Positions 12,277 to 29,402 of a DNA stretch of 35,350 nucleotides are shown here, in pieces. Within the stretch, counting starts at the first letter, position 1; each line of letters begins with the position of its first letter. The position numbers and the translations under genes are program-made. The notes under the pieces were generated by a model, which made no database searches, was not told where the DNA came from, and saw only the letters and a list, made by a program, of their open reading frames with translations. Source of the stretch: Prevotella sp. (lineage in GTDB: Bacteria; Bacteroidota; Bacteroidia; Bacteroidales; Bacteroidaceae); the NCBI GenBank assembly GCA_017483185.1, contig JAFULM010000014.1, positions 1 to 35,350 of the forward strand. The letters run 5' to 3'.

Positions 12277-12305
12277 CGTGGAACAGACAGCAAGACGGTT
12301 CCACG
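12277..12305. other. 8-bp hairpin at the RNA 3' side / possible element end
   Basis: CGTGGAAC (12277-12284) and GTTCCACG (12298-12305) form a perfect stem with a 13-nt loop. The right arm is part of an 11-bp sequence repeated at 33494-33504, so it may be a terminator remnant or part of an attachment site. Confidence 0.35.
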
Positions 12306-12308
12306 CTT
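12298..12308. other. Possible left attachment site core (attL candidate)
   Basis: GTTCCACGCTT occurs here and, in the same orientation, at 33494-33504. The pair brackets all element genes, with the integrases next to the right copy. Eleven bases could match by chance in spans this long, so this is a suggestion only. Confidence 0.25.
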
Positions 12309-12438: not shown

Positions 12439-12951
12439 TCATTTTGATTTGCCATAACTTTCAACGGGTTCTGCTACCATATTATATTCAACCTCTATCG
12501 TCTTGTAATATTTTATTTTTCTGTCTTCAAGGTAAATATGGTTAAGAGTATATTCCAAAGCCTCTAAAGTCTGTTGACGGACTTTTGGTTTCAACTGACA
12601 TTCCCAAACAGTAATACAATGCCACCCCATCGAAGTTATCTGTTGCCGTTCCTCTATATCCCTACTCCGATTACGCTCAATTTTATTCTTCCAAAATTCA
12701 ACATTTGTCTTTGGTAGAACGTAGTATTTGCATCCTTCGTGACCGTGCCAAAAGCAACCATTTACGAAAATAACAGTTCTGTATTTGCGCAAAACCAAGT
12801 CGGGATGCCCAGGAAGCCGTGGATGATTCAGTCTATACCGAAACCCACGGCCGAACAAGAACTTTCTCACCAGCAATTCTGGCTTCGTATTCTTGCTTTT
12901 TATCGCAGACATACAACGATGGCGCTGCTCTTGGGTCAAGACATCAACCAT
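12439..12951 (-). CDS. vsr: Vsr-family (very short patch repair) endonuclease
   Basis: This 170-residue nuclease of the PD-(D/E)XK fold keeps all Vsr signatures. These are the N-terminal MSAIKSKNTKPELLVRKFLFGRGFRYR, the catalytic Asp in LPGHPDLVL (about residue 51), IFVNGCFWHGHEGC with the zinc and active-site His and Cys residues (about 62-76), and FWKNKIERNRSRD. Classical Vsr nicks T:G mismatches left by 5-methylcytosine deamination and sits beside a cytosine methyltransferase; none is present in this window. Instead its ATG overlaps the stop of the HerA gene by 8 nt, making it the last gene of the SIR2-HerA set. A defence nuclease role is inferred from this context. Confidence 0.9.
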   Translation of the reverse strand: MVDVLTQEQRHRCMSAIKSKNTKPELLVRKFLFGRGFRYRLNHPRLPGHPDLVLRKYRTVIFVNGCFWHGHEGCKYYVLPKTNVEFWKNKIERNRSRDIEERQQITSMGWHCITVWECQLKPKVRQQTLEALEYTLNHIYLEDRKIKYYKTIEVEYNMVAEPVESYGKSK

Positions 12952-15022
12952 TGTATTTGTTATTTTTGTCTTTATCAGTCACAACTTCTTTGTAAAACCA
13001 TTCCATCTTAATGTCACAGTTCTTGCTATTTGGTGCTGGCTCAGCTTCTTTAATTTTAACCATAATTGGCATAGGTACACAATTTCCGAAGATTAACGCC
13101 TCACCAGGAACAGCTTGTTTGATTTTTGTTATATAATCTTCACTGAAGTATGGAAGAACTGAATAGATATATTTCATATCAACTTCGTTCTGTATTCTAT
13201 GAACGATATAGTTTCCACATTGCGACAAAACCGTCTGGGATAACTCTGAGGGTCTTTGTGAAGATATAATCAAATATAGAGAGTATTTCCGGCCTTCTCG
13301 TGCTATTTTTTCAAAAATATTCTCACGCATTATGTAATTAGCGTCTTTTCGAATATAGCGATGTGCTTCATCAAGAATCAGATGTATTGGTTTTTGCTGT
13401 CGCAATTTCCCAAACTTATGTTTTCTATAATCGAACACCATTCGAGATACGACACTTGTCATCAATTCTAAAGCATCCGTTCCCACTTCACTCGAATCTA
13501 TAGTGATAAGTTGTTTGCTTTTTCCCTCAGAATCTGAGATGCCAAACATTTTTTCTAAGTAGTCATTGCAATCTTGATAATCTGGAGTTTCAATACGCAT
13601 AAACGCGCACTCTGGGTTATAAAGAAAGAAATCCAACCGACTCATCAGCGTAGATGTGAAGTCTCTAATGTGCAGATTACCATGAGCCTCTTCTTCCAAA
13701 AGTACCATATCAACCGCAGTTCGCAGATAGTGGTAATCAAAGTATTTACCAGGCATAAGCTTGTTTTGGTCTACCGACAAAGCATCACTTTCATCGATTT
13801 GTCGGAATGCACCTTCTGTTTGGGTACCTGAAAGGTTCGCTTCGCAATGGTCACGATGTTTTGTTATACATACGTATTTCGGCTTGTCTTCTATAGCTGT
13901 AAAAAGATTAAGTGCATTAGACAAGGAATCATTATTGTTGCCAAAGTTAACCACGCACAGGTCGTTACATGCATTGAGAAAGTTAGAAAGATCTGTCAAG
14001 ACATTATTATCAGCATCATCACCAAGACCTCGATCGCATGTCTGCCTAAGCATTGCGATAGCTCCTTTTGCCGCTGTCATTTTGGAGGTGTCACTATCTA
14101 TTCTGCTTACAATATTGAATAGCATTTGCTGTAATTTCCATTTGATATAATTGGCAAATCGATGAGTATCGTTTCTTTTATCAGTATTGAAAATGCTATA
14201 AAACTTATAACTCTCTTGAAGGACTCTGTCCCAGAACGGTTTTTGAGTTCGTTCCGATGCCATTAAAAATGACAACCACTCATCAAGGTTCATCAAATAA
14301 TAAGGTAATATGAACCGTTTATGTACACCATTCTCCTCACATATATTAGGCTTATAGAAAATAGATTCTATCTCGTTATTCAAATGTGCCTCTACTCCCA
14401 AAGCCATAGGATATTCACCATTTGCATCGAATATGATTGTTTTGGCTCCTATAGCTTCATTTTCATGCTTGCGATATACTTCATGCAAAATATGAGCTAT
14501 TGTATTAGACTTGCCGCTACCACTATTCCCAAGTACGGCTGAATGTATATTGAAGAAACGGTTGATATCAAGTTCTATAGAGTAATTAATCAAACTTTTA
14601 CTTGTCCCAATGAAAATTGTTGAATGTACGCCTTCAATGTCATATCCTTCATTACAAGACAATATTGAATCCAAATCATTAAAAGTCACGATTTCCACGT
14701 CACTATACAAAGAAGGGAAAATACCCACACCCATACAGAACTTTTCGTGCATTAATGTTCCTATTGGCTTAATGATAATCTCTCTTGAACTGTCGAGATT
14801 ATATGTACTATATACTTGATTTTCCTTGCCTACCCAATCAACTATTGATACCACCTCACACAAAATATACTCTCCTGAAGAGTTTATTGTCTTCAAGTAA
14901 CTACCAATATTGCCAAAATAGTATACTTTTCCATCAATATTGACAGTAGAGTTTCTTGTAGTGTGAAACAAGCGAACTCTAAACTTGTCATATTCCACTG
15001 ATATTATTTTACCTATTTTCAT
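12944..15022 (-). CDS. herA: HerA-family ATPase/helicase (SIR2-HerA defence)
   Basis: A 692-residue hexameric-type DNA translocase of the HerA/FtsK superfamily. An N-terminal beta-rich HAS-barrel-like part (about 1-110) precedes Walker A GNSGSGKSNT (165-174). Walker B is PIHLILDEAHRY, about residues 565-576, and is followed by the HerA sensor and arginine-finger region SSQRPSELSQTVLSQCGNYIVHRI. HerA pairs with SIR2 effectors in known anti-phage systems, where it forms a complex that activates or scaffolds the effector. The track-length frame opens with a TTG at 15034, but the ATG at 15022 starts MKIGKIISVEYDKF and is preferred; it overlaps the SIR2 gene by 14 nt. The gene is clearly AT-richer than the chromosome to the left. 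Confidence 0.9.
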   Translation of the reverse strand: MKIGKIISVEYDKFRVRLFHTTRNSTVNIDGKVYYFGNIGSYLKTINSSGEYILCEVVSIVDWVGKENQVYSTYNLDSSREIIIKPIGTLMHEKFCMGVGIFPSLYSDVEIVTFNDLDSILSCNEGYDIEGVHSTIFIGTSKSLINYSIELDINRFFNIHSAVLGNSGSGKSNTIAHILHEVYRKHENEAIGAKTIIFDANGEYPMALGVEAHLNNEIESIFYKPNICEENGVHKRFILPYYLMNLDEWLSFLMASERTQKPFWDRVLQESYKFYSIFNTDKRNDTHRFANYIKWKLQQMLFNIVSRIDSDTSKMTAAKGAIAMLRQTCDRGLGDDADNNVLTDLSNFLNACNDLCVVNFGNNNDSLSNALNLFTAIEDKPKYVCITKHRDHCEANLSGTQTEGAFRQIDESDALSVDQNKLMPGKYFDYHYLRTAVDMVLLEEEAHGNLHIRDFTSTLMSRLDFFLYNPECAFMRIETPDYQDCNDYLEKMFGISDSEGKSKQLITIDSSEVGTDALELMTSVVSRMVFDYRKHKFGKLRQQKPIHLILDEAHRYIRKDANYIMRENIFEKIAREGRKYSLYLIISSQRPSELSQTVLSQCGNYIVHRIQNEVDMKYIYSVLPYFSEDYITKIKQAVPGEALIFGNCVPMPIMVKIKEAEPAPNSKNCDIKMEWFYKEVVTDKDKNNKYNG

Positions 15023-16283
15023 CTTTTGTTTCAATCTTTAAGCTTTCGACGAATCGGTTAAGTACATTTTCTTCTTTTTGGAATGTGTCAAGATTTGGCA
15101 AGAGATTATTAACTATATAATCAAAGTAATTAATTGTTCCCTTTTTATCCTTTTTGTCTTCGTCATTATACTCTATCCCACTAATTGTAAAGATGCGCTT
15201 ATCGTCAATAAAGAAGATTGGCTTAGTTTTCTTTTCCTCGATTTTTGGTTTGGAGCCAAAGATCACCACATTTATAGTTGAATTAGTAGCCAAGGCCCTA
15301 TATATTATATCGTTTACATGCCTGTCACTGAAACTATATCCTATAACAAATAGGACAGAATGTGGTTCTAGTAATTTGTTTTGGAACTCGCGAAAGAGGT
15401 CAACATATGGGCTGCCCAAGCTTTTGTCCTGCTTTGTTGGGGTGGGATATATTAGAACAGAGCCATTGGGGGTTGTTTCAGAAGGAACAACTTCCTCAAT
15501 CTCGAAATAATTATTAGTTTGATTATGCGATTCACGCCAATTGACAGAACCATGAATTTTATAAAGATATACCATATTTTCAACAGGTTCATATTTGTCA
15601 ATACTAGTGTCCATTCGTTTAGACCATGTATAGTTGAAAATAGCAGGATTAAAGTACTTGTGAAGTCCTCCGCTAAAACCATTAATGTAATGAATATTTA
15701 ATGCGTCAAGAGCTGTTTCACTGAACAAATCGTTATTTGTCGTAAACACTCGAATTCTGGAATTATCCTTAGTCCTAAGAGCCAACTTTTGATAGAAAGT
15801 TTTATAGTATCCTAAGACCTTATTGTGATTATCTTTATCGAACCCAATATTGATACTGTTAAAAATATGCTTTTCAACTTTATCTATCATGGCTTCATAA
15901 AGTTTCAACCAAGATTCTATGTTCTCTTGTTGCTCCTTGACCGTGATCTCTATCCCCTGATAATGTGTTCTTGCGGCATACATTACTGTCAGACATTTCT
16001 CTAAATTGCTTTCACATTTTGCAGCGATACTTTTGAACTCTGTTTCCATTTCTTTCTCTTCGGCGGTGAAGGACAACGAAGTATAAAGTTCCGACATTGT
16101 AGGAATTGCTCCACTACTTGTGCCGGACCCAAAAAGAAAATTGACATTTTTCAAATTAAACAACTCTCGGATCTTGTCCTTAAGTAAAGAAAGCTGTTCT
16201 TCAAAATTAGAACCCGATTGAAAATAATCAGAAGTGCCTTGGGTCATAACCAAGTCACCAAATTTATGTTTATTATCTGTCAT
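15009..16283 (-). CDS. SIR2-family NADase-type effector (SIR2-HerA defence)
   Basis: This 424-residue protein has a SIR2_2-type catalytic domain. It shows FGSGTSSGAIP (about 51-61) for NAD binding, FTTNND (180-185), the catalytic-type histidine in YKIHGSVNW (His244) and VIGYSFSDRHVNDI near residue 320. The key residues are intact, so NAD+ hydrolysis is expected. In known SIR2-HerA systems infection triggers NAD+ loss and stops phage growth; that role is inferred here. The middle region (about 60-180) is helical and does not match the catalytic core. The ATG at 16283 is preferred over the GTG at 16289. It lies 34 nt after the AlbA_2 gene and overlaps herA. Confidence 0.88.
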   Translation of the reverse strand: MTDNKHKFGDLVMTQGTSDYFQSGSNFEEQLSLLKDKIRELFNLKNVNFLFGSGTSSGAIPTMSELYTSLSFTAEEKEMETEFKSIAAKCESNLEKCLTVMYAARTHYQGIEITVKEQQENIESWLKLYEAMIDKVEKHIFNSINIGFDKDNHNKVLGYYKTFYQKLALRTKDNSRIRVFTTNNDLFSETALDALNIHYINGFSGGLHKYFNPAIFNYTWSKRMDTSIDKYEPVENMVYLYKIHGSVNWRESHNQTNNYFEIEEVVPSETTPNGSVLIYPTPTKQDKSLGSPYVDLFREFQNKLLEPHSVLFVIGYSFSDRHVNDIIYRALATNSTINVVIFGSKPKIEEKKTKPIFFIDDKRIFTISGIEYNDEDKKDKKGTINYFDYIVNNLLPNLDTFQKEENVLNRFVESLKIETKDENR

Positions 16284-16323
16284 AATCACTTGTCAATATG
16301 AGGTTGTTAATTCAAATTTGTCT

Positions 16324-17823
16324 TTATATTCTATCAAAGAATCCCTCGTATTCTTCGTCGATAATCTTCCATTCTCCCATTTTTCGCCCACCTATACGAG
16401 CTATCTTTCCTAATTCTTGAAGACGTCTCAGGTATTTCTGAACCTGGCGAGGTGAAAGATCCATGCTCTCGCTCATTTGTATAGCGCTGATATGAGGATT
16501 TTGAGAAATCAACTTGTATATCTGGCGACTTGCTTTTACGAACTCTTTTGCGAACTTGGACGGTCCTTTTACGAACTCTTTTACGACCACTTCGCCATTG
16601 CCTTTTACGAACTCTTGTATTAAGGGAATGTTGTCTGGCGTGAGTTCTTCCATTATCTCACCCTTATAATTCAAGTTCCATAGAGTCACGTGAAATTCAG
16701 AAGCATTGGAGGTGAATGCTGGTACATGGTAGTCTGAAAGATGCTCATAAAGCCTATATGTGTTTATGATCTTCTTCATTCCACTGCCTCGTCTCTCCAT
16801 AAGTCCCAATCTACTGAAGAAATCAGCCAGCAAGGGATTCCTTCTTTTGGATGGCACTGTAAGTGGGTTTAACTGCTGGATAAGCCTGCCGTCCATCATT
16901 CCTCCAGGTGAGTATATTTCTAAACGGTCGTCATACATATCTATGTGTATCTCACTTCCCATCTGCATATAATCCCTATGGATAATGGCATTTGCTATCG
17001 CTTCTGTTACGGCACGTTCTGGATAATCAGGCAGTTCCTCACGATAGTCATTCTCTTTCCACCATTTCTTCCGGGAATTGTTCCTGACAAAAGAAACGGC
17101 ATCCTGTAACTGGCTTATCACGCAACCTTCTAATTCCACATCATCAATCGCTTCACCTAAGCCGCTTGTCATATCAAGACCATTCCAGCGTGTGCAAAAT
17201 ATACGTGACTGCCGAACAGGAGATTCATCAGCCAATAATGCACCAGCATTTGTCAACATACCATTTTCATCAATGATTCCCCACGAAACGAACTCATTGT
17301 CTTCAAACGAACGCTGTAGCCTTTTGTAGTGGACAGACTTGAGTTTGGAGAATGCCATATCCTCAAATCTATAATTGGAAGGCAAACTGTCATATGTGCG
17401 CCCGGAACCTTTCAACACAAGTGTTTTCAGTTGAGTGCGGTCTGCTGTAACAGACTCATTGCCTATGCGTACAAAGGCGATGCGCTGTTTGTCGCCAATG
17501 TAATAATATGGCGTTTCCTGTCCGGGATATACATGCAATAATACAAGGGTTTTACCTTCTGCTTCCTTTAGTTCAAGATTGACTGCAGGAACTGGATCCA
17601 TTTTACTCTTAATCTCCTCACTTATTCTCTCTGCATCGCCTTTTGCGTCAGCGAGTCCGACTATATGGTCATCATCACTGACACCAAATATCAACGTGCC
17701 GCCCTCGCCATTAGCAAAAGCCGATACACTCTTGAGCCAACTTTTAGGGCGTTTGACCTCAAGCATCTGTTTCTTGTCATAGGTTGTAGCTTCACCTATG
17801 AGTTTCTGTATATCTGTATTCAT
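16324..17823 (-). CDS. AlbA_2 (Schlafen-like)/HATPase_c_4 regulator-type protein
   Basis: A 499-residue protein. An AlbA_2 domain (about residues 10-125, with EVKRPKSWLKSVSAFANGEGGTLIFGVSDDDHIVGL) is followed by a GHKL-like ATP-binding region (about 265-370: RAVTEAIANAIIHRDY, YSPGGMMDGR, RRGSGMKKI). A C-terminal winged helix (about 450-490) carries ISAIQMSESMDLSPRQVQKYLRRL. Members are often annotated as transcriptional regulators and occur in phage-defence clusters; what this one does is not known. Between the ATPase and HTH parts lie three exact copies of a 15-bp repeat encoding KEFVK-type units. Its ATG overlaps the previous stop by 4 nt, tying it to the McrBC-like genes. Confidence 0.82.
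   Translation of the reverse strand: MNTDIQKLIGEATTYDKKQMLEVKRPKSWLKSVSAFANGEGGTLIFGVSDDDHIVGLADAKGDAERISEEIKSKMDPVPAVNLELKEAEGKTLVLLHVYPGQETPYYYIGDKQRIAFVRIGNESVTADRTQLKTLVLKGSGRTYDSLPSNYRFEDMAFSKLKSVHYKRLQRSFEDNEFVSWGIIDENGMLTNAGALLADESPVRQSRIFCTRWNGLDMTSGLGEAIDDVELEGCVISQLQDAVSFVRNNSRKKWWKENDYREELPDYPERAVTEAIANAIIHRDYMQMGSEIHIDMYDDRLEIYSPGGMMDGRLIQQLNPLTVPSKRRNPLLADFFSRLGLMERRGSGMKKIINTYRLYEHLSDYHVPAFTSNASEFHVTLWNLNYKGEIMEELTPDNIPLIQEFVKGNGEVVVKEFVKGPSKFAKEFVKASRQIYKLISQNPHISAIQMSESMDLSPRQVQKYLRRLQELGKIARIGGRKMGEWKIIDEEYEGFFDRI
16533..16616. repeat. Three exact 15-bp in-frame repeats in the AlbA_2 gene
   Basis: CTTTTACGAACTCTT occurs exactly at 16533-16547, 16566-16580 and 16602-16616 (33 and 36 bp apart, so in frame), with two degenerate copies between (near 16545 and 16578). 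On the coding strand they give the motif KEFVKG/A. Confidence 0.8.
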
Positions 17824-19991
17824 GCGTCATTGTTTTCTTTTATTAAACTCTTTATGGATAACAAGTGTGGTGAGTAACTATCACCACTCTTGGTAATGGG
17901 AGTGAAATCCAATTCGCCAAATGCAGGGATTGCATTCAGTTCTGCATTATAGACAAGATAGATGGATGCTCCTTTCTTTGTCGTCACCATATCTGTCATC
18001 TCATTTGCGGAAATCAGCCTCGGCCCTTTCCCATCAACGAAGAAGGCAGCATATTTGTTGCTTTTGTTGTGGATAATGAGATATTTGGCAGTGGTAAAAC
18101 CTTCAACCAATTGCAATGTAGCTCCATTCATATTCAGTGCTATGCCAAGTTTGCCAGTCTGCTTCATTTTTGCCACAGCATTGTCGAAATGTATTCCCTC
18201 TTTAGTTACACATAGAGCCAATTCTTGATCTTTTGGCTTTACTGCTACATTGGCAGCAATGGCAGGCAGCACTTCGTCCGGATTCTGCCCTAAACTACAA
18301 GGTTCCACATAGAAGAACTCGGACAATGCCGCCTTAATATCTTCATTGTCACCTTCTGGATCTTTATTATCCAATGCAAGCGAATAAGTCTTTTCGTCTG
18401 CGAATGGAGTATAAATCTTGCCAACAACGTTCTTGAAGTTTCGCCTGATATATTCTTCTCCATCGACTCCCGGACGGGCACGCATGGCATAGAAGTCATA
18501 ATCCTTTTGCAGCCATTCTTGTATTTCTTTGCGGAACTTGTCCCTAATGTCATTCTTCCATCTGGCTTTCTGTGATATGTTGTCACGCGCATAGAGTGAC
18601 AACACAAATAAGAAGTTCACATCATAGTGGAACAACAGAAGAGTGTCACGGTCGAACAGGCGGTTTTTGAATTGCTCCTTCTTGTGCTTGTTCTTCTTGC
18701 GGTCTGTTTTCTCAATCCCATCATTGGAATAGTCAAACGCCATATCCATCTTCGCACTTATGAAGAAGTTAGGTATGATATTGTAGCCTTCTGTCACATC
18801 ATCACGCAGGCGTACACCAGACTTCGTCTCTCCACCCACATTGAAGATGTCCAGATTCCATTGGATTACGTTGCGGGCGTATGTATATTGCTTGTAAATG
18901 GATTCTGTGGTCAGTTCATGACCAATCTTATAATACTTGCTGTCACCAATGTAGTATGTCTGCTTTGCTTCGCCGTCAATCAGACTTGGCGCAGAGAAAA
19001 GATGGTCAACGATTTTCCCGTCCTCCTGTTTCTTTTCCATACCGTCTGGAAGAGGTTTGTCGCCAATCAGTTCGTCAATGATTGCTTCAAAGACAATATA
19101 GAAATTCTTGACCAGCAAGTATTCTTTCTGCTCTGTGTTGATGAACACCTGCCGTGACTCGTCAAAGAAAGCATAACAAAGTTGCCATAGCTCCAAAGCC
19201 TTGTCTGAGAAATACTTGTACTTGATTTGCAGCAACCTTGTCTTGCCATAACCTTTCAGATAGGTTGCAAACTGTTTACCCTTGACAAGTTCAAACTGGC
19301 AGCTTATTTCCTTGGAGAATCCGTAGGTGTCACCGATATAATTCAATATGGAGAAGAAGATGACAAGCAGTTCCTCATCGAAGTTTATTTTCCGTTTCTT
19401 GTTTACGGGGTTCAGATAGATGGGGCGGTTTCGCTGCACAATGGCTGTTGTCGTGCCGATGGTGCGCGTCCAGTTTATCTTATTGAAGCCGGAATGAAGA
19501 TTTTTCAGTATAAAAAAGAAAAAGTTCTGGTTCTCGCGATTAAACTGTATCAAAGACAACAAGATGTCAAGATAGGTATTGCTCAGCCTGCGCTGTCCTT
19601 TGCCCACTTGCGCTATTTGGGCATGATAAATGATGGAACTGTCGGTTTGTTTGTCGTTCTTGTAAACCACGATTGCCCGATAAATCCATACCGCAAATTT
19701 ATAGATGAAATCCCGCTCCCTTTGAGAAAGCGGATTCTTTTTGTCAAGGTTTGCAATGTCCTCTGGCTTGTACTTGCCGAAAACCAAATCCGGACTGTAA
19801 GCAGCGTCTGCGCCTCCCTGTAGTAATACTTTAGGAAGAATAAATACGCAGTCCTTCAATAGGCTGTTGTAATAATAGCCTACATAATGTATTGACACCT
19901 TGCCCTCTATGTTGGTCAAGGGGTCAATGCCGTGGAGGATGTCCTTCACGGCAGCCACTTCGTATTGATATTCTTCAATGAGGATGCGCAT
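17820..19991 (-). CDS. McrC/LlaJI-like restriction nuclease subunit
   Basis: This 723-residue protein is the partner of the McrB-like GTPase encoded just upstream (1-nt overlap). A PD-(D/E)XK nuclease core is visible around KIVDHLFSAP (Asp329) and YYIGDSKYYK (Asp350, Lys352). The region after it (about 360-430) has the QYTYARNVI helix seen in McrC-like nucleases. The protein is much longer than McrC (about 350-450 residues). The N-terminal 300 and C-terminal 270 residues are extra, and the overall layout resembles LlaJI-type restriction proteins. McrC cleaves DNA when driven by McrB GTP hydrolysis. Whether it reads methylated or bare DNA cannot be told. The stop overlaps the AlbA_2 ATG by 4 nt. 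Confidence 0.75.
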   Translation of the reverse strand: MRILIEEYQYEVAAVKDILHGIDPLTNIEGKVSIHYVGYYYNSLLKDCVFILPKVLLQGGADAAYSPDLVFGKYKPEDIANLDKKNPLSQRERDFIYKFAVWIYRAIVVYKNDKQTDSSIIYHAQIAQVGKGQRRLSNTYLDILLSLIQFNRENQNFFFFILKNLHSGFNKINWTRTIGTTTAIVQRNRPIYLNPVNKKRKINFDEELLVIFFSILNYIGDTYGFSKEISCQFELVKGKQFATYLKGYGKTRLLQIKYKYFSDKALELWQLCYAFFDESRQVFINTEQKEYLLVKNFYIVFEAIIDELIGDKPLPDGMEKKQEDGKIVDHLFSAPSLIDGEAKQTYYIGDSKYYKIGHELTTESIYKQYTYARNVIQWNLDIFNVGGETKSGVRLRDDVTEGYNIIPNFFISAKMDMAFDYSNDGIEKTDRKKNKHKKEQFKNRLFDRDTLLLFHYDVNFLFVLSLYARDNISQKARWKNDIRDKFRKEIQEWLQKDYDFYAMRARPGVDGEEYIRRNFKNVVGKIYTPFADEKTYSLALDNKDPEGDNEDIKAALSEFFYVEPCSLGQNPDEVLPAIAANVAVKPKDQELALCVTKEGIHFDNAVAKMKQTGKLGIALNMNGATLQLVEGFTTAKYLIIHNKSNKYAAFFVDGKGPRLISANEMTDMVTTKKGASIYLVYNAELNAIPAFGELDFTPITKSGDSYSPHLLSIKSLIKENNDA

Positions 19992-21706
19992 TAGTTAACC
20001 CTTTCAATACTTATATCCAACTTTTGTTTTACGTTCTGTATGAACTTCTTGAATAAGGCTTCTGTCCAGCCCATAATCAACCAGACAATAGAGTTTCCCC
20101 ATTCAATTTTGACACGCCTTTTATTTGCAAATGGCTGATTGTCATTGGGTGATGGTTGCCATGTGGGGACTAATAGATTATTCCTTTCGGCAATACCATT
20201 CCAAAGTTGAATCATTTCATCAACTGAAATGTTCTCGTTCTGCTTTGCATAATTTTCAATTATGTATCGAACTGCATTTGGGGTGGAAAATTGTTCAGAA
20301 CTCCCATTAATAGAATATTTGGGTATTGTCTTACCATTGGAATTTTCAGACTCATCGTCAACCTCTTCTGAGTATTCTTCTATTGGCATCATCCCAAGGT
20401 TTTCAAGGAACATCTTAATCTTCCCCTCATTCACATTACCATTTGCCATATAGAATTTGTCAAACGAGAGTTTAGTATTCTCATTATCTTCATTGTCGTC
20501 AAATATTTTGTCGTCAAATCCGAAATCCTTGAACACATCGTTCCATAGGTAGAAGATAACTTTACAAACGAATGTTTCTGCACTGATGATATTGTCCTTA
20601 GCCTTGCAGAAGAAAAAGCCCAATTGCTTGTCTTCCGAATTGGTCGTGTCAAAAACATGCTTATTGATAGTTCTGACAAAAGTCCACCAATCGTATAAGC
20701 CACCATCAACATCTATCATCCAATTCAATTCTTTTCCATTGTCATTTCCCTTGGAAATAGGCACATACTTCCAATCCCAACGGCGTTTAAAAGCACTGTC
20801 TATTGGGAACAGACTCTGGTCGGAGGTATTCATCGTAGCGCGGATATAGAGGTTACTTGGCAAAAGCAGTTCCTTTCCCGTCTTTATATTAGGGTAATCT
20901 GCTATCTCCACATCCTCGAATGCTTTGCTCAAATGCTTCTGTAAATCCCGATCAGCTCTTATGGCATACTCAGAATAGCCATCATCACCTCTGTCCAAAA
21001 GCTGGAACAAATCACCGAATACCTGAGCACAGTTGCCACGGTTGATTTCCTCGATTATCAAGAACTCAGGCTCATCTCTGTTCTTCCATGCATCAATGTA
21101 AGCTTGCAAGAAAGCCTGTTCTACAAACTCGTAGGTGATAATCTGTTCCATGACAGGCACTCCATCTCTTGTCATAGGTTTGTTGTAGATGTCATATCTT
21201 TGCACACTCTCTGTGGTAGGCTTGTATGCCCCAACAAATGTGAAATAGTCGCTGTCGGGATGGAAGGTCGTCCTTACCACTCTGTCTCGCCCTTCCCATG
21301 CTTCTGTTTCCTTTTTCACGGCATGGGACTTACCTGTGCCTGGTGCACCGTAAAAGATTTGTTGAAAGGGGGTATTGATACATTTTAATGCCGTTTGCAT
21401 ATGATTTATATCTCCGGAAAAATCATCTTCAAGAAGCATTTTTGCCATGGTGACAAGAGACGCTGCATAACCATATTCAAATTTGTCTATTCTACTTTTC
21501 CCTACTAAAGCCTCTCTTACATCATTCGCTACTGCATCAGGATGTTGGCTGACGTATTTTGTGAATTCATCCAAAAGTGCTTTTGATATTGTACGAATCC
21601 CCTTTGCTCCTTTACTGGCATTCTCCACCTGATAGCACAATCTATCTTCGTCCACAATAACAATGTTACCGAGTGGAGAGACATCACCTATTTTTAACTT
21701 TCTCAT
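19991..21706 (-). CDS. mcrB: McrB-like AAA+ GTPase
   Basis: A 571-residue AAA+ motor. Walker A is GAPGTGKS (120-127), Walker B FLIIEEINRG (215-224), and the McrB signature MNTSDQSLFPIDSAFKRRW follows from residue 292. McrB proteins carry MNTxDR here; the Arg is replaced by Gln, a small variation. The first 100 residues form a different domain, probably for target recognition, and are not one I recognise. McrB rings use GTP to move DNA and to stimulate the McrC nuclease. It is 12 nt downstream of the FRG gene and overlaps the nuclease gene by 1 nt, so the set is one operon. Confidence 0.9.
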   Translation of the reverse strand: MRKLKIGDVSPLGNIVIVDEDRLCYQVENASKGAKGIRTISKALLDEFTKYVSQHPDAVANDVREALVGKSRIDKFEYGYAASLVTMAKMLLEDDFSGDINHMQTALKCINTPFQQIFYGAPGTGKSHAVKKETEAWEGRDRVVRTTFHPDSDYFTFVGAYKPTTESVQRYDIYNKPMTRDGVPVMEQIITYEFVEQAFLQAYIDAWKNRDEPEFLIIEEINRGNCAQVFGDLFQLLDRGDDGYSEYAIRADRDLQKHLSKAFEDVEIADYPNIKTGKELLLPSNLYIRATMNTSDQSLFPIDSAFKRRWDWKYVPISKGNDNGKELNWMIDVDGGLYDWWTFVRTINKHVFDTTNSEDKQLGFFFCKAKDNIISAETFVCKVIFYLWNDVFKDFGFDDKIFDDNEDNENTKLSFDKFYMANGNVNEGKIKMFLENLGMMPIEEYSEEVDDESENSNGKTIPKYSINGSSEQFSTPNAVRYIIENYAKQNENISVDEMIQLWNGIAERNNLLVPTWQPSPNDNQPFANKRRVKIEWGNSIVWLIMGWTEALFKKFIQNVKQKLDISIERVN

Positions 21707-21718
21707 ATAATTCCTTCT

Positions 21719-22723
21719 TTATTCTCTGTGACTGTCAGGAAAACTTCCTGGATATTTTTTATGATAGTTATTAATAATGTATTCTAATTCCGAATCCGTA
21801 TATTTAAATGGAGACGTAGAATAGAAATGACATCCTCTTTCTTCCAATGCTTTCTTGGCAAATTCATAAGAAACATCATATTTAGATGAATGTATGACTT
21901 TTTGCAAAGAATCTTCGCCGTACATACGATATTTGCTCATTTCCCGTATTTTCTCTGCCATTGGGTCATAAGGCGACAGTAGCTTTCCTTCATCAAAATA
22001 ATCATAACATTTTTTTGATGCTTGCGGATTTTGCCAAAAGAAAAATCTAATAGGACAGATTGCATTAAAATCTTCTCCTTTTCGCAGTTCCGCTCCGTAG
22101 GCACGTTGTTCACCAGGACGTGCCAAAGCCTCCATACCTATGGGAAGTATATAGTCTTTACGATTTCTGTCAAAATTAGAAAGGAGTCCACCTGTTGGCA
22201 TAAAATATATGACACCTTTTGTGATAGACCATGGGATTGGAATATAGCAATTAGTAATTAGATCATAATATGTTGTTGCAAAAAATGCGGCGACCCCGAA
22301 ACTGTTGGTTAGATCCATAATGTTTGTGTCAATTCCATAGTGCTGTGCTAATCCTGTATAATTTACAACTAAACCATTGTCTTTTAAATCTTTAATTTCC
22401 GGATTTTTATCTAAAATCGTTTTGAAATCCTCAAACTTAATGTCTCTTTCTATCAAATCTAATTCAGACATTTCTTTCCTGTATAACGAAGGATAAGAAG
22501 GGGAATGAAAAAGATTTTGTCCACGAAATAACGGAGACATTGGCATAGGTGCTGCAACCAATCGGTTTGCCTCCAATTGCATGATTTCAAAATTAGGCGC
22601 TGCATACCAACCAAAACTCCATCCGCTTTTTATGTGAAGATAGTCATATACGTCAAAAATATCGCGGAAAACATATTTCCCAGAACGGATATCTTCATTA
22701 GAAACATTTGACCAGCGTTCCAT
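21719..22723 (-). CDS. FRG-domain protein
   Basis: This 334-residue protein has the FRG motif that names the family: SPLFRGQNLFHSPSYPSLYRKE (Phe-Arg-Gly at 66-68). An Asp/His-rich block, YTGLAQHYGIDTNIMDLT (about 120-137), and RPGEQRAYG near residue 204 follow, all typical of the domain. FRG proteins are common in phage, restriction and defence clusters; their biochemical role is not settled. There is a 2-nt gap to the XRE gene upstream and 12 nt to mcrB, so it is probably cotranslated and could act as an effector or adaptor of the McrBC-like pair. Confidence 0.88.
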   Translation of the reverse strand: MERWSNVSNEDIRSGKYVFRDIFDVYDYLHIKSGWSFGWYAAPNFEIMQLEANRLVAAPMPMSPLFRGQNLFHSPSYPSLYRKEMSELDLIERDIKFEDFKTILDKNPEIKDLKDNGLVVNYTGLAQHYGIDTNIMDLTNSFGVAAFFATTYYDLITNCYIPIPWSITKGVIYFMPTGGLLSNFDRNRKDYILPIGMEALARPGEQRAYGAELRKGEDFNAICPIRFFFWQNPQASKKCYDYFDEGKLLSPYDPMAEKIREMSKYRMYGEDSLQKVIHSSKYDVSYEFAKKALEERGCHFYSTSPFKYTDSELEYIINNYHKKYPGSFPDSHRE

Positions 22724-22725
22724 TT

Positions 22726-22950
22726 CTATTCTATCTCATAATTAAAATCTGCCTCTATGAGGTCTTTAATATCTACCTTGAGCAATTTGGCAATCTCAAC
22801 GAATTGCATCATAGATGGTTGAATCTTATTTGTTTTCCATCGTGAAACTGTCATATCAGTAACGCCCATTTGTTCCGCCAACCATCGGTTGGTTATTTCT
22901 TTTTCAGCTAAAACGACACGTAGTCGATTAGAGCAATCTTTCTTTTCCAT
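22726..22950 (-). CDS. XRE/Cro-type helix-turn-helix regulator
   Basis: A 74-residue Cro/C1-type repressor. The HTH reads RWLAEQMGVTDMTVSRWKTNKIQPSMMQFVEIAKLLKV (about residues 23-60). Its size matches small controller proteins of restriction systems. It heads the defence operon and has a -7 box (22976-22983) only about 25 nt upstream. A 10-bp direct repeat lies over and beyond the -33 region, a probable self-operator. It probably times expression of the toxic nuclease and NADase genes behind it. Confidence 0.9.
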   Translation of the reverse strand: MEKKDCSNRLRVVLAEKEITNRWLAEQMGVTDMTVSRWKTNKIQPSMMQFVEIAKLLKVDIKDLIEADFNYEIE

Positions 22951-22975: not shown

Positions 22976-22983
22976 CAAATATA
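22976..22983 (-). promoter_or_regulatory. -7 promoter element of the defence operon
   Basis: TATATTTG on the minus strand matches TAnnTTTG and gives a leader of about 20 nt before the XRE start codon at 22950. Confidence 0.6.
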
Positions 22984-22992
22984 AACATAAAA

Positions 22993-23022
22993 TGATAAAT
23001 ATCAAAATTATTTGATAAATAT
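22993..23022. promoter_or_regulatory. Candidate XRE operator: paired 10-bp repeats
   Basis: TGATAAATAT occurs at 22993-23002 and 23013-23022, exactly 20 bp (two helical turns) apart. The first copy extends to the perfect inverted repeat TGATA-AA-TATCA (22993-23004). The pair covers the expected -33 region of the defence promoter, as an autoregulatory operator would. Confidence 0.5.
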
Positions 23023-23092: not shown

Positions 23093-24475
23093 TTATCGTT
23101 TACGTATCGGCTTTTTCCTTTCGCCCCACGGCATATCCGATGTTGAACCACCGCCACCAGTTTCTACTTGTGGTTGAGCAGAACCGCCTGTAGCCAATTC
23201 AATGGCAGCACTGAGTAGATTGGCTTGTATCTCGTTGACTTGCTCAGCGGCACTGAAACAGGCATTGACAAATTCGTGGTCTGTCAGTTCTCCATTGCTG
23301 AAAGCGTGCAATCGCTTGTCGCTGTCGCTAAGATAGGTGACAGCGGTATGCTCAATCTCCTTAACCTTGGTCCAGATTTTCAGGGTAATGGTATAGGGGT
23401 TGTTGCCAAGGAAACGATGACCTATGAGTTCCGCTCCCGATGAAAGCCGGTACCGTTGCGGATTAGCCTTGCGGTCAAGCTCGTCAATCCTGCTCTTCTG
23501 TCTTTCAATGACAGCATCCTTCTCGACAGCCTTTTGCTCTGCGTTCTCCGCACGCCTGATGGCAACATCGATTTCCTTCTGATAGCCATTCCTCAGTTTG
23601 GCTATTTCAGACTCATGCCTCTGCTTCAAGGTAGCTTTCTCCGCCTCCAGTTTCGCAATCTTAGCCTGGTGTCTTGCCAGTTCCTCGTCTTTTGATGCCA
23701 GTTCTTTCCTTGCCTTGGCAAGGTCGCCTTTACCAAACAGGGCGAGTATTGTGCTTTTGCCCTCCTTTGCCTTTTCCACCTCTTCCTGCAACTTAGCGAT
23801 ATTCTCTTCATACTGTCGCATCTGCTGCTTATAGTGGGTGGATGTGGCAATATGTCTGGCAGTAGAACCGACAATGCCACGCTTCAGACCGAACTCACTC
23901 ATGGCAGCAGCGTATGTGTTCTGATATTCATGAAGCCTAGCACGTTTGAGTACGTCATCTGCTGACAGCCGTGGTCCGGACTTTGTGTTGTACTTCCGCT
24001 CTCCCTCCCGTTCACGGCGTTGCCTTTCGGCAGTAACGATTGGAACTATGGTCGCATGCAGATGGGGAGTCTTCTCGTCCATGTGCAACACACATGAGAC
24101 AACATTTTCCTTGCCGAAGGTCACATACAGCCATCTGAGGTTAGCTTCCATCCACTTGTCCAGTCTGCCTTCTTCCTGCATCTTCATCATCTGCTCGTGC
24201 GTCCCCGTCAGGATGATTCGGATAGCCTTGCACTGGTTCTTCGCCACCTTGCGTGACAGTCCTGCATGGTCTATGCGGTACTGTATGGCTTCAGTCCTGT
24301 TCCTTACTCCATCAGGGAATGATACCAGTTCCCTGTTCTGATGCGTGCGGCTACTGTCGGCATTGTCCGGCACATAAGTCTTGCCCAGGGCATCCTTTCT
24401 CTCGATGTGGCACGACATTCCACTGTCGCTGCCACTGCCACGCTGAAGGTGGCATACTGCATATTGTTCTTTCAT
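23093..24475 (-). CDS. MobV-family relaxase (Mob/Pre)
   Basis: A 460-residue DNA relaxase that nicks oriT for mobilization by a helper conjugative element. Start codon ATG at 24475 (KEQYAVCHLQRG, with GGAAAG just upstream) is preferred over the frame's earlier codon at 24544. The MobV motif HMDEKTPHLH (131-140) supplies the metal-binding His triad. Motif I has CHIERKD near residue 22. A long coiled coil (about 225-350, EKAKEGK, AEKATLKQRHE) and a C-terminal VSVFAD-like tail with LIGHRFLGNNPYT follow. No coupling protein or transfer genes are present, so it depends on other elements. The candidate oriT lies immediately upstream. Confidence 0.93.
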   Translation of the reverse strand: MKEQYAVCHLQRGSGSDSGMSCHIERKDALGKTYVPDNADSSRTHQNRELVSFPDGVRNRTEAIQYRIDHAGLSRKVAKNQCKAIRIILTGTHEQMMKMQEEGRLDKWMEANLRWLYVTFGKENVVSCVLHMDEKTPHLHATIVPIVTAERQRREREGERKYNTKSGPRLSADDVLKRARLHEYQNTYAAAMSEFGLKRGIVGSTARHIATSTHYKQQMRQYEENIAKLQEEVEKAKEGKSTILALFGKGDLAKARKELASKDEELARHQAKIAKLEAEKATLKQRHESEIAKLRNGYQKEIDVAIRRAENAEQKAVEKDAVIERQKSRIDELDRKANPQRYRLSSGAELIGHRFLGNNPYTITLKIWTKVKEIEHTAVTYLSDSDKRLHAFSNGELTDHEFVNACFSAAEQVNEIQANLLSAAIELATGGSAQPQVETGGGGSTSDMPWGERKKPIRKR

Positions 24476-24518
24476 CTTTCCAATTGTTTTTGTTGGTGAT
24501 ACATTGTTGTCCGTAGGG

Positions 24519-24641
24519 TTTATAAAATGCCGTCTTGCCTTCACGGATACCGCTGGTTATCCGCTTATGGGGCTTTTTCGCTCCGCCACTCGCAGAGGGA
24601 AGGAGATGAAAATGCCCTAATAAGCTACGGCATTTTATAAA
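24519..24641. other. Candidate origin of transfer (oriT) region
   Basis: Between the primase-like gene and the relaxase gene, TTTATAAAATGCCGT (24519-24533) and its exact reverse complement (24627-24641) flank about 93 nt. Inside, 24544-24563 can form an 8-bp hairpin with one bulge (CGGAT-ACC...GGT-ATCCG). Just outside, GACAGC/GCTGTC pair around two bases near 24657-24670. A GC-rich stretch ggctttttcgctccgcc lies between. The placement fits the oriT of MobV elements, but the nick site is not identified. Confidence 0.5.
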
Positions 24642-24672
24642 ATCCCTTTCTTCAAGACAGCAAGCTGTCCCG

Positions 24673-25698
24673 TTACGGCTCCTCCACGAGTTCCAGGTCA
24701 AGTTCGTCTATGAGCGTCTGTAATGCAGGATTGCGGTCTATCATCTTCTGCAAAATCATACGTGGGGTGTCCTCCATCAGAAGGAAGTCAGCTATGTCAA
24801 GTCCCTGATTGCGCTGTTCATTTGTCGCCATTGTCTCCAACACGTCATTGACTGATATGGAACGGCAGACCTTTCTCAACATTGGCAGTTTACCCTGCCA
24901 CTCCTGCGTGGCACCGAGGTCGGGCATCAGCATCACGTCCCTGCCTGCCAAGACATAGATGGCCCGCTCGTTGAAGCAACCGTTCTTGCCTCCTGTGGCT
25001 ATCCACAGCACATCGGGCATGAAGTGCGAGGCAATGACAGCCGTCTTCTCACTCTCCACCACAAAGACCTGCTTGTCTGGATATAAGGGAAGAAGATGCT
25101 CGCCAAAGAAACATTGGCGGAGGTTAAAATCTTTCTGCCTCATTTCCGTATGCACCCAACAGATGTGCGGCTGTGGATGCTTCACCCTTTTGCCTGTAGT
25201 AGCATCATAAAGCATGATCTTTCCAGTGCGGACACAACCGCTGCAATCCACCTGCCAGAATACGGCAGCACCTCCCCATTTCCTTGACGTGCCTATCCGG
25301 TAAAGGCGGCTCAACCTGTCGCTCTCTTCCTTTCCCATGCATCTGGCAAGGAATGTGTACAAAGGGTTAATGTCATAGTGTGACAACGTCTGCTCCATGA
25401 TGACATTGTCTATGAATGACGGTTGTGGTTCTTGTTGAGGAGCAGGAGATATTTGTATCGTGCCTTGTTTTTCTTTCATCATGGTGTTGAGAATTTCCGG
25501 ATTTTCTTGAAAATGGTCTCTTGGCGTAAAGTGATAGCCACAACTTTGTTCATGGTCACACCTGCCGACATAGTCGGGAAATGTAATTTCCTTTTTACTG
25601 TCAACATAGCGTGTAAAACAGGCTTTGCAGCCACATTTGGGACACTGCTTTTTACACCCGGTATGGTATTTCTCCAAATGAAATCTATATTGTTCCAT
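24673..25698 (-). CDS. Primase-like protein with zinc finger and Toprim-type domain (DUF6371-like)
   Basis: A 341-residue protein. The N-terminus has a zinc-binding pattern, CPKCGCKAC (about 19-27), and CDHEQSCGYHF (about 48-58), as in bacterial and phage primases. A Toprim-like half (about 200-300) carries VFVVESEKTAVIAS (acidic Glu) and VLAGRDVMLMPDLGATQEW (DxD-like Asp). It belongs with proteins found beside DUF3987 ATPases and MobV relaxases in Bacteroides mobilizable elements, where it probably helps convert or copy the transferred strand. It follows the DUF3987 gene after 136 nt. Confidence 0.75.
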   Translation of the reverse strand: MEQYRFHLEKYHTGCKKQCPKCGCKACFTRYVDSKKEITFPDYVGRCDHEQSCGYHFTPRDHFQENPEILNTMMKEKQGTIQISPAPQQEPQPSFIDNVIMEQTLSHYDINPLYTFLARCMGKEESDRLSRLYRIGTSRKWGGAAVFWQVDCSGCVRTGKIMLYDATTGKRVKHPQPHICWVHTEMRQKDFNLRQCFFGEHLLPLYPDKQVFVVESEKTAVIASHFMPDVLWIATGGKNGCFNERAIYVLAGRDVMLMPDLGATQEWQGKLPMLRKVCRSISVNDVLETMATNEQRNQGLDIADFLLMEDTPRMILQKMIDRNPALQTLIDELDLELVEEP

Positions 25699-25726
25699 AT
25701 TCGTTTCTGAAATTAGATTACGGCGA

Positions 25727-25820
25727 TTTCAGTTTTCAGTTCTTTCAGTTTTGCAGAAACCGTGAATGTATGGCACAGACATCCTTGTATCCTTATTCTG
25801 AAAAACTGAAGAAACTGAAA
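25727..25820. repeat. Clustered TTTCAGTT inverted repeats
   Basis: The block 25727-25754 contains TTTCAGTT-like units three times. The block 25798-25820 contains the reverse-complement units CTGAAAAACTGAAGAAACTGAAA. Together they can fold as an imperfect hairpin in the transcript between the DUF3987 and primase-like genes. They could be iterons for replication or an attenuator. Confidence 0.5.
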
Positions 25821-25834
25821 TGTGAAACAGGGGC

Positions 25835-27259
25835 TTATTCATTGCAGCTTGGACTTAGATTCCCCTCAATACTGCCCTTTGTAAATTCATCAAAGACCGT
25901 CTTACGGTATTCCCCTTGCCGGATTTTATGGACAAGACGGTTTTTGAGAAGTTCTTTGAGGTAGTTCATCACCGTGCGGTCGGTCACCTTTAGCTGCTTC
26001 CCTGCGGCAAGAGCCTCCGCGGTAGTGAATGAATCGTTCAGCATCGAGAGCAGTTCCCTTGACGGTTCGTCACAGGCATCGTTGGCGACATACTCCCTTA
26101 TCCTGCAATAGGAATCCTCGAAATAATCCATCAACCTTATAGCTCCATGCATAGCCTGTTTAGTCACGAACTGGAGATGGCTCTCGCCACACGCATAGCG
26201 CAACACCTGTAGGATAAGTGCGATGCGTGCCACATGGACAGGGGCTTTCATCGGGCGGGACTCTATCATGTTGTCATCCTCTATGGCATTTGTCCGCTGT
26301 ATGGTGGCATTGTGACTTGTGATGAACTCATCCCTGGCTTCTTCCTCCATGTCTATAAGGTGAAATTTCTGTTTCTTCCCGTCCTCACCAGTCTCATAGT
26401 CAAGGGCAAGAACCTTTCTGATGATACTCTGCCATGCCTCCATGCCGGAAGCGGAACGATGGTGTGTAGAGTTGTCTTCTTCCTTCGTCCAAAGTGTCAG
26501 CTGCTGTACCTTGGGAAGCGTGAACAGAATACGGTCAAGCAGTCCGTTCTCCTCATACCCCTTCTTCATCAGTTCTCCCATACGCTTCGTCTGTGTTGTT
26601 CCTATCATATTGATGCAGGGGTGTTCGATATGGAGCGGTATGGGATTGTTCACACGTACCACATCCAGTGCGCCTCCGCTCCATGCCGTCAGCAGCTGCT
26701 CTATCAGCTGTCCGTTGTTGTAGCGGTTGGCCGAATTGAACATCCCCATTATCTCATCCACCAGTATGGTGACACCACGAGGGGAATTATAATGAGAGAG
26801 AAGCAGGGCCTCCGGTGTGAAGTCAGATACAAGAGTGCGTGAGAGGACGGGCTTCTCCATGTCGCATCCTCCCTTTGTCTCTTTAGCCGCATTCTGATAT
26901 GCGGACATGTCCGCCTTGAATTTCCCCATCTTCGCATTGTCGTTCCTGCGTATGGGACGGAATGCCGCTTCAAGAGGCGGTGTCTTGCCCAGTCCCGGTC
27001 TCCCCACCATGATGATGTAGAGTGCGGCATTGGTTATCCATTGCCCTTTCACCCTCACATAGTAGGTTCCGCCCAATGCGGAGGAAGCTGCCGAGAGCAT
27101 GGCTGGAGCGAGATACTCCACCTTGAAGTTCTCGTACCTCACCATATCAAGGATGATGGTCTGCACCCTCTCAGGGAAGGCGTCTAAAGGAAATCCAGTG
27201 TCCTTAATACCTTGCACATCGGACATGACTCTATTACAGATTGTTTGCGCGATACTCAT
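25835..27259 (-). CDS. DUF3987-type ATPase/helicase-like replication protein
   Basis: This 474-residue protein has a P-loop, VGRPGLGKTPPLEA, at about residues 87-100 and a Walker B region VTILVDEIMGMF near residue 170, both in the DUF3987 layout. The C-terminal part (about 400-460) looks like a winged helix (FTTAEALAAGKQLKVTDRTVMNYLKELLKNRLVHKI). Proteins of this type sit next to primases on mobilizable plasmids and elements and are thought to unwind or initiate on the element. The start is the ATG at 27259, which overlaps the previous stop by 4 nt; the in-frame TTG at 27283 is less likely. Confidence 0.85.
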   Translation of the reverse strand: MSIAQTICNRVMSDVQGIKDTGFPLDAFPERVQTIILDMVRYENFKVEYLAPAMLSAASSALGGTYYVRVKGQWITNAALYIIMVGRPGLGKTPPLEAAFRPIRRNDNAKMGKFKADMSAYQNAAKETKGGCDMEKPVLSRTLVSDFTPEALLLSHYNSPRGVTILVDEIMGMFNSANRYNNGQLIEQLLTAWSGGALDVVRVNNPIPLHIEHPCINMIGTTQTKRMGELMKKGYEENGLLDRILFTLPKVQQLTLWTKEEDNSTHHRSASGMEAWQSIIRKVLALDYETGEDGKKQKFHLIDMEEEARDEFITSHNATIQRTNAIEDDNMIESRPMKAPVHVARIALILQVLRYACGESHLQFVTKQAMHGAIRLMDYFEDSYCRIREYVANDACDEPSRELLSMLNDSFTTAEALAAGKQLKVTDRTVMNYLKELLKNRLVHKIRQGEYRKTVFDEFTKGSIEGNLSPSCNE

Positions 27260-27612
27260 ACTAAGGGCTCCTTTCTCTTGCAATAGTTGGTCACACTGTC
27301 ACCCCGTCCTCCTGTCTGTACACGGCGCACATCGCTCTTTGCATACATGTTCTTGTTGCCGACCTTGACAGGGATAAGGTAGCCACGTTTTGCCCACAGG
27401 TTGAGTGTGCCGTCACATACGTTGAGGAGTTCCTTCACCTCACGTGTGTTATAATAGGTTTCCTCTTGTGGAACCTTACTCTCAATCTCTTGTCTGTATG
27501 CCATGATTGCCCGTTCGGCGATTCCCTCACCGAACATCTTGAGGTCGGCAGCAGTGACTTCTATCCTGACATTCGCACCCTGCTCGACCAAGGATTGTAA
27601 ATTTATAGCCAT
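27256..27612 (-). CDS. HTH/excisionase-like DNA-binding protein
   Basis: A 118-residue protein with a MerR/excisionase-type winged helix in the C-terminal half: YYNTREVKELLNVCDGTLNLWAKRGYLIPVKVGNKNMYAKSDVRRV (about 56-101). The N-terminal half is helical. Such proteins precede DUF3987 genes in Bacteroides mobilizable elements and may control excision or the mobilization operon. It heads the operon HTH-DUF3987-primase-MobV, and its stop overlaps the next start by 4 nt. A palindrome (27776-27789) and a leader hairpin lie upstream. Confidence 0.85.
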   Translation of the reverse strand: MAINLQSLVEQGANVRIEVTAADLKMFGEGIAERAIMAYRQEIESKVPQEETYYNTREVKELLNVCDGTLNLWAKRGYLIPVKVGNKNMYAKSDVRRVQTGGRGDSVTNYCKRKEPLV

Positions 27613-27693
27613 ACTATAATATTTATGAATCTGATACTATGACCATCACCTGAAATCCCTGACACCTCCCTTCCGATGGCACATGAAAAAGAG

Positions 27694-27727
27694 GCACCGC
27701 CAAACCTCGGGAAAGATTTGACGGTGC
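27694..27727. promoter_or_regulatory. Leader hairpin upstream of the HTH gene
   Basis: GCACCG (27694-27699) and CGGTGC (27722-27727), extended by CAAA/TTTG after one mismatch, make a 34-nt stem-loop. It lies downstream of a TAATTTTG -7 box on the minus strand (27727-27734 region) and about 80 nt before the HTH start, so it would be at the very start of the transcript. Confidence 0.5.
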
Positions 27728-27775
27728 AAAATTACGCTGATTTTGTAAGTGGTTGAAATAAAGTGTTTTGTCTTA

Positions 27776-27807
27776 TTTGTCATGACAAAAATGACAATTT
27801 ATGACAA
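27776..27807. promoter_or_regulatory. Candidate operator: palindrome plus three ATGACAA repeats
   Basis: TTTGTCATGACAAA (27776-27789) is a perfect 14-bp palindrome. ATGACAA repeats at 27782, 27791 and 27801, spaced 9-10 bp, about one helical turn. It lies about 165 nt upstream of the HTH gene and just upstream of its promoter, where a regulator would bind. Confidence 0.5.
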
Positions 27808-27846
27808 GGGAGAATTGCAATAAAATAGCGATTTCGCTTTGAATTT

Positions 27847-27903
27847 GCGCAAAATAAAATGCAGACTTAGTTACTTTGAATTGATAAAAAGTAACCAAGT
27901 CTG
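27847..27903 (-). terminator. Rho-independent terminator after the AbiE pair
   Basis: Read on the minus strand, CAGACTTGGTTACTTT and AAAGTAACTAAGTCTG pair over 16 bp (one G-U) around a 10-nt loop (27862-27903). The U-rich CATTTTATTTT follows. It lies 31 nt past the AbiEii stop. Confidence 0.85.
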
Positions 27904-27934
27904 TATCAAAAAGTGTCTAAGTAAGCAAGTTCGG

Positions 27935-29379: not shown

Positions 29380-29402
29380 GCCTTTATACTTTATTTTGTG
29401 TA

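Follow-up and report, generated by a model that had tools for sequence, protein, structure and literature searches.

The LlaJI restriction-modification (R-M) system of Lactococcus lactis combines an McrB-like subunit, carrying a unique N-terminus, with a predicted cutting partner encoded by an adjacent, co-directional gene, in an architecture with a methyltransferase upstream of McrB and McrC (PMC1459862). SIR2-HerA systems (Nezha, GAO_19) consist of adjacent SIR2 and HerA genes (PMC11559045, PMC11514479), and the studied relatives form a 12:6 NADase complex (PMC11559045). A census of McrBC Type IV systems reports methyltransferase-associated McrB branches and, in its available part, makes no mention of LlaJI, FRG or SIR2 (PMC11090510). 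In this study, we analyzed a 35,350-nt stretch of DNA from Prevotella sp. (the window, meaning the whole of that stretch), in which eight open reading frames (ORFs), all on the minus strand and spanning 12439-22950, encode XRE, FRG, McrB-like, McrC-like, AlbA_2, SIR2, HerA and Vsr proteins. We lean towards reading these genes as a composite defence operon, derived from a LlaJI-type system, with a nested AlbA_2-SIR2-HerA block as a back-up and carried on a mobilizable element.

The locus resembles each of the described systems in part. Compared with LlaJI, as that system is described, the window has no methyltransferase and FRG instead, XRE as the first gene, AlbA-SIR2-HerA nested within and Vsr at the end. 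Its SIR2 and HerA genes are adjacent (Pfam, PADLOC), carry catalytic motifs and match solved SIR2 and HerA proteins as in Nezha, whereas the pair lies inside an R-M-derived operon behind AlbA_2 and its similarity to the solved homologues is remote. Coupling of immunity and suicide within one operon has already been proposed, with Sir2 linked to Type I R-M (PMC3506569); those loci are Type I, whereas the window joins a methyltransferase-less LlaJI-type core to a full SIR2-HerA pair. SIR2/HerA has also been noted between or downstream of R/M systems (PMC11514479), so that the statement of an earlier note on this DNA, that restriction and NAD-depletion modules are usually described apart, was too strong. 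Among the matches listed in our literature search (titles and abstract openings, with subscription papers mostly outside it), neither SIR2-HerA in a LlaJI-type operon nor FRG in the place of the methylase was recognized.

Operon layout and recurrence in a diverged element

The eight ORFs are separated, from XRE to Vsr, by 2, 12, -1, -4, 34, -14 and -8 nt, in agreement with the earlier note, and families were recognized for seven of them with Pfam, PADLOC and NCBIfam. An XRE regulator (74 aa, 22726..22950; Pfam HTH_26, 3.4e-9) is followed by an FRG-domain protein (334 aa, 21719..22723; Pfam FRG, 6.2e-12), which stands where relatives have a methyltransferase, by an McrB-like or R1.LlaJI-like AAA+ subunit (571 aa, 19991..21706; Pfam AAA_5, 1.1e-7; PADLOC REase_II models, 1.7e-43) and by an McrC-like or R2.LlaJI-like putative nuclease subunit (723 aa, 17820..19991). 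Next come an AlbA_2-HATPase_c_4-winged-helix protein (499 aa, 16324..17823; Pfam SLFN_AlbA_2, 1e-20, HATPase_c_4, 1.4e-25, and HTH_24, 3.2e-7), a SIR2 NADase-like subunit (426 aa, 15009..16289, with a GTG start or ATG 16283; Pfam SIR2_2; PADLOC SIR2, 4.4e-144), a HerA translocase subunit (692 aa, 12944..15022; Pfam DUF87, 2.5e-22; PADLOC HerA, 1e-229) and a Vsr-family endonuclease (170 aa, 12439..12951; TIGR00632, 4.1e-42, above cut-off; Pfam Vsr; PADLOC Vsr, 1.1e-29). The HerA ORF is open from TTG 15034 (696 aa, 12944-15034), which would make its overlap with SIR2 26 nt instead of 14; we set the start to ATG 15022 because conservation begins there. The SIR2 catalytic Asn/His motifs TTNND and KIHGS align with structures 8yhx and 8j4u, and HerA has its Walker motifs (Walker A GNSGSGKS, plus LILDEAH).

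Scanning a genome collection with two HerA peptide patterns, as a sample, gave 18 loci, two of which bear directly on whether these genes belong together. L069 (Prevotella sp. RGIG8630) carries the operon at 98.8% identity over 10.7 kb, with open frames for the seven complete genes, and for XRE up to the contig end that falls inside it. More diverged is an element in Bacteroidales UW_MP_BACTE5_2 (L070/L101), with the order Mob, XRE, m5C methyltransferase, McrB, McrC, YobI ATPase, AlbA_2, SIR2, HerA and Vsr, where Mob is labelled from its position and from how similar the adjoining genes are in DNA, and an open Vsr copy follows HerA in L070. Identity to the window is 89% for XRE, 85% for AlbA, 69% for SIR2, 90% for HerA and about 77% for Vsr, and 45% and 42% for McrB and McrC of the restriction core. 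At the DNA level, homology to L101 spans promoter and XRE (window 22721-23030), ends where gene 2 begins and restarts about 10 nt inside AlbA; McrB and McrC show only short, weak pieces. The restriction core was thus probably exchanged between conserved ends, with faster divergence of the core as the alternative. Because the gene order recurs in this diverged element, the eight genes are probably a real unit rather than a chance pile-up, and because Vsr is the last gene in both the window and L070, we place SIR2-HerA inside the restriction operon. The view of two joined modules held as far as one operon-like unit, and has to be changed in that SIR2-HerA is most likely nested before Vsr and not appended. 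In a HerA tree, L071 is the neighbor of a clade (100/100) made up of the window, L069 and L070. A weak match to the ThsB TIR family (4.4e-4, just under cut-off) was seen directly after SIR2-HerA in L071 (12041-12520). The window's own genome seems to carry the operon twice, on a further contig that duplicates window 1-17854 (identity of 100% over 13957 nt and of 99.97% over 3897 nt), and this was taken as assembly redundancy.

The Bacteroidota promoter consensus is TTTG-N19-TAnnTTTG, and a site matching it at 10/10 positions, TTTG-N19-TATATTTG, lies before XRE at 22976..23006 on the minus strand. This is the only 10/10 match on that strand of the window (23006-22976; 0.11 expected on the operon strand), L101 has a 10/10 match at the equivalent place before XRE, and the consensus scan found no perfect site inside the operon of either the window or L070/L101. 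The AlbA-SIR2 gap, of 34 nt in the window and 60 nt in L070, contains no site of at least 9/10, and terminator-like sites are as frequent as chance would give (10 versus 10.3 expected over 11000-24500). The promoter scan, and the promoter, XRE and AlbA-SIR2-HerA-Vsr kept in order in L070/L101, support the earlier view of one operon-like unit with a single promoter and one XRE gene. An 18-nt palindrome, TATCAAA-N4-TTTGATA (23000..23017), overlaps the -33 box and is a candidate XRE operator; in L101, a palindrome of 18 bp stands just ahead of the -33 box. Since equally good palindromes appeared in 55 of 500 shuffles for the window and 64 of 500 for L101, they point to an operator weakly.

In the reading we favor, the ancestor would have been a LlaJI-type R-M operon of XRE, m5C methyltransferase, McrB, McrC and Vsr, between whose McrC and Vsr genes the AlbA_2-SIR2-HerA block came to be nested, and in the window lineage an FRG gene would have taken the place of the methyltransferase. 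The genes would be transcribed together under XRE control. McrB (recognition and translocation) and McrC (cleavage) would cut incoming DNA, and SIR2-HerA would act as the back-up, sensing infection or processed DNA and draining NAD+ when cutting fails. Self DNA might be spared in spite of the missing cognate methylase either by modification-dependent recognition, or by a nuclease gated by FRG or by infection.

SIR2-HerA in other restriction operons

SIR2-HerA shares a co-directional run with R-M genes in 7 of the 18 loci, versus 8 of 159 control ORFs, when gaps of up to 100 nt are allowed (Fisher p = 1.3e-4; 2.8e-3 with 5/16, when L069 and L070 are left out). Allowing gaps of up to 300 nt leaves the count at 7/18 and gives 10/136 for the controls, and by eye the number rises to nine with the addition of L079 and L085. 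Several of these loci place the pair among the genes of a single Type I system, with R, M and S genes confirmed by Pfam: the order HsdM-HsdS-SIR2-HerA-(x)-HsdR is found in L075, in L081 and in L062, which is distant, a similar order with extra genes, namely an unassigned one and AlbA_2, in L072, and SIR2-HerA-HsdR-HsdM-HsdS in L073. HsdS and SIR2 are 5 nt apart in L062, 11 nt in L075 and 13 nt in L081, and HerA is followed by HsdR after 2 nt in L062 and 232 nt in L081, with a 643-aa gene intervening in L075. Elsewhere, a Type ISP enzyme lies upstream in L068, and on an Arcobacter plasmid the S and R genes of a Type I system flank those of a DUF87 protein and an AlbA-like protein. As related SIR2-HerA pairs are often located in other restriction operons, restriction and SIR2-HerA modules are not always apart. 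The case that could have undone the proposal, with the two halves always apart, did not turn up, and the search for the same gene order that had been suggested found it again in L070/L101, beside McrB and McrC of 42-45% identity.

Several observations weigh against a composite operon whose parts work together. There is only one diverged second instance, and it sits on an element with a partly related relaxase region; no R-M gene occurs in the run of L071, the sister locus for HerA. In the stretches compared, SIR2-HerA was present in 0/11 order-level and 0/5 phylum-level McrBC relatives (the contigs of L054 and L058 end right after McrC, and several contigs are short), and McrB/McrC in none of the nine order-level SIR2 loci compared, out of 24 non-own genomes with matches (contig ends truncate L060, L064 and L067). 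The controls are other non-R-M ORFs of the same loci and so are not independent, and the R-M reference proteins came partly from 5 of the 18 loci, which biases the count towards R-M near SIR2-HerA. On the operon strand, nine sites of at least 9/10 were found versus 2.0 expected; two of them are the promoter and a shifted match to it, and the other seven, promoter-like at 9/10, fall within genes, so that weak internal transcription starts may occur. Finally, any cooperation of the restriction and SIR2-HerA modules is suggested by gene order alone.

Much of this would also fit a co-transcribed stack of independent defences, with an R-M operon as the landing place that gives SIR2-HerA a promoter, and with neither mutual sensing nor mutual need, an explanation that we regard as a serious contender though short of an even prospect. 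Defence genes cluster in islands, the slot after McrC is variable (a YobI ATPase in L070, Piwi genes in L123 and L124, a GHKL-type ATPase in L126), and by eye SIR2-HerA is without R-M in its run in nine of the 18 loci, some of them on short contigs. Less easily accommodated is the position of SIR2-HerA between parts of one R-M system, as in L062, L075 and L081 and here between McrC and Vsr, and the retention of XRE together with AlbA-SIR2-HerA-Vsr while the core diverged or was exchanged.

The restriction core and its missing methyltransferase

Judged by its sequence and its relatives, the restriction half is a LlaJI-type R-M core and not a classical McrBC. The McrB-like profile matches McrB structures 6ut5 (6.7e-24) and 6hz4 (1.7e-17), and the protein keeps Walker A and the NxxD-type motif MNTSDQS, as in McrBC Type IV systems (PMC11090510), whereas its partner matches no McrC model. 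The N-terminal 116 aa of the McrB-like protein, which may recognize DNA, are private, being found outside the window's own genome only in L069 among the loci compared. The 723-aa ORF had no match in Pfam, PADLOC or NCBIfam, McrC models included, and a profile search gave its family no relative in the PDB. Wherever a locus was readable at the order and phylum levels, however, its relatives lay beside an McrB-like gene, and 12 sequences of the family share an invariant D329-H330...D350-S-K352 pattern, which we read as PD-(D/E)xK-like, with no profile or structure match; the ORF is named McrC-like because of this pairing and this pattern.

McrC relatives were searched for in 393 genomes of the order, where 15 non-own genomes had relatives and 11 loci were compared (G053, G237, G289 and G362 were left out as weak); L049 and L050 have no upstream sequence, which leaves nine readable loci. 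A methyltransferase lies directly upstream of McrB in seven of these nine, of the m5C type in five, N6/N4-type in L054 and D12 in L053, and none was recognized upstream in L057 and L059, which are of one genus. The methyltransferases are preceded by an XRE gene in 4/9. All five loci compared from a search of 385 genomes at the phylum level have a methyltransferase (Pfam), with one 222-aa ORF intervening in L126, as do a relative on a Pedobacter plasmid and L101 (Pfam DNA_methylase, 1e-83). Altogether 14 of the 16 readable relatives (nine from the order, L101, five from the phylum and one plasmid) carry an upstream methyltransferase, mainly m5C, which is the LlaJI architecture (PMC1459862). In two of the LlaJI-type R-M operons, L123 (5434-7506) and L124 (10730-12832), a Piwi-domain (pAgo-like) gene directly follows McrC.

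Pfam recognized no methyltransferase among the eight ORFs of the window operon, and FRG occupies that place; for this reason we call the core LlaJI-derived and do not file it as an R-M system. The module labelled "McrBC-like" in the earlier note is better described as a LlaJI-type core in which the methyltransferase is absent and FRG stands in its position. In the window lineage, FRG would hold the place of a lost methyltransferase, and Vsr is most likely part of the restriction system. Two m5C methyltransferase genes are present in the window's own genome, in a separate locus on contig C23; as cognate partners they were rejected, the best being 40% identical over 195 residues to the L101 enzyme, which is not close. 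A locus of the same genome outside the operon (L102, 3645-12153) has two m5C methyltransferases, XRE, AlbA-like pieces and two large unassigned genes, and may represent an R-M system of its own. Within the order, relatives of FRG are weak and were found in the own genome and 5 others of the 393. Plasmid scans gave one McrC relative and one FRG relative, and three scans of viral contigs gave no relative of AlbA, FRG or HerA.

The core may by now be a modification-dependent (Type IV-like) nuclease, having shed its methyltransferase since a new McrB N-terminus came to read modified DNA, with FRG as an unrelated, added effector. This concerns the core alone and fits either view of the whole operon; we hold it tentatively, as credible yet not the likelier outcome. 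It would account for the private 116-aa N-terminus, since specificity in R1.LlaJI and McrB is determined there (PMC1459862), for core frames that are open in both hosts, and for hosts of the window and L069 with no close m5C methyltransferase in common and none beyond 40% to the L101 enzyme (in a genome-wide search of m5C enzymes only), and L057 and L059 likewise show no methyltransferase. Against it stand the methyltransferases of the 14 relatives and the persistence of Vsr, as expected beside an m5C methyltransferase; moreover, both hosts are metagenome-assembled genomes (the window's own is 74.7% complete), and the data may therefore lack a cognate enzyme. That the restriction half is instead a decayed relic, its methyltransferase lost, its nuclease silent and only SIR2-HerA protective, is unlikely, for although no methyltransferase is adjacent and coding changes between the window and L069 fall mostly in Vsr (32 nt), McrB (19) and FRG (7, of which 5 nonsynonymous and 2 synonymous), frames are open in two hosts, pN/pS is 0.18 for McrB and 0.20 for Vsr (small counts), and the nuclease-like and ATPase motifs are intact.

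FRG has been assigned to the ART superfamily, with a possible NADase function (PMC9503650). It is conceivable, as a very long shot, that FRG has taken over the function of the methyltransferase, as an ART-superfamily enzyme marking or gating DNA or nuclease by an NAD+-dependent reaction; the locus would then be a restriction system with ADP-ribosyl chemistry as its "modification" partner, and SIR2 a second NAD+ consumer as back-up.

A putative carrier element, and what the operon would imply

The operon appears to be cargo of a putative integrative mobilizable element of 21.2 kb, bounded by an 11-bp direct repeat, GTTCCACGCTT, at 12298 and 33494. Features of such elements are present, namely tyrosine integrase, relaxase and direct repeats at both ends, and the element core (23093..33272, minus strand) encodes a Mob_Pre relaxase, DUF6371, DUF3987, HTH_17, an AbiEii gene, DUF6043 and two tyrosine integrases. 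The near-identical cargo in L069 gives indirect support for excision and transfer of the element. Within the core, the AbiEii toxin gene and an upstream 231-aa gene, for which Pfam gave no match, occupy 27935-29502.

The insertion lies at the 3' end of a structured, unclassified RNA gene (11982-12308, plus strand, about 325 nt); the left repeat (12298..12308, plus strand) forms this end, and RNA homologues in genome G409 stop there too. The right repeat (33494..33504, plus strand) is followed by a T-run resembling the Ts into which the 3' end of the RNA runs in L119, and the operon likewise adjoins the 3' domain of the structured RNA in L069. The fold has a z-score of -4.1 (12050-12320), and for 13 of 84 predicted pairs one or more of five sequences have both partners changed. 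Searching the window's order with a model of the 3' domain built from six sequences gave matches in 60 of 384 genomes, the window's own among them; scoring was limited to 10 candidates per genome, and a single genome had as many as 9 matches. The left flank resembled 6S RNA, a name that was dropped because Rfam gave no match at gathering or at E up to 5. At about 11285-11684, the window also contains a member of an intergenic repeat family that is found on several other contigs of its own genome at 70-86% identity.

The finding raises the question of how a methylase-less LlaJI-type nuclease, with a gene of an NAD+-enzyme family in the place of the methylase, avoids cutting its host. If the composite reading holds, SIR2-HerA would be a recurrent internal part of restriction systems, kept while the adjoining core changes, and the coupling of DNA cutting and cell suicide would be directly testable in one small, transferable operon.

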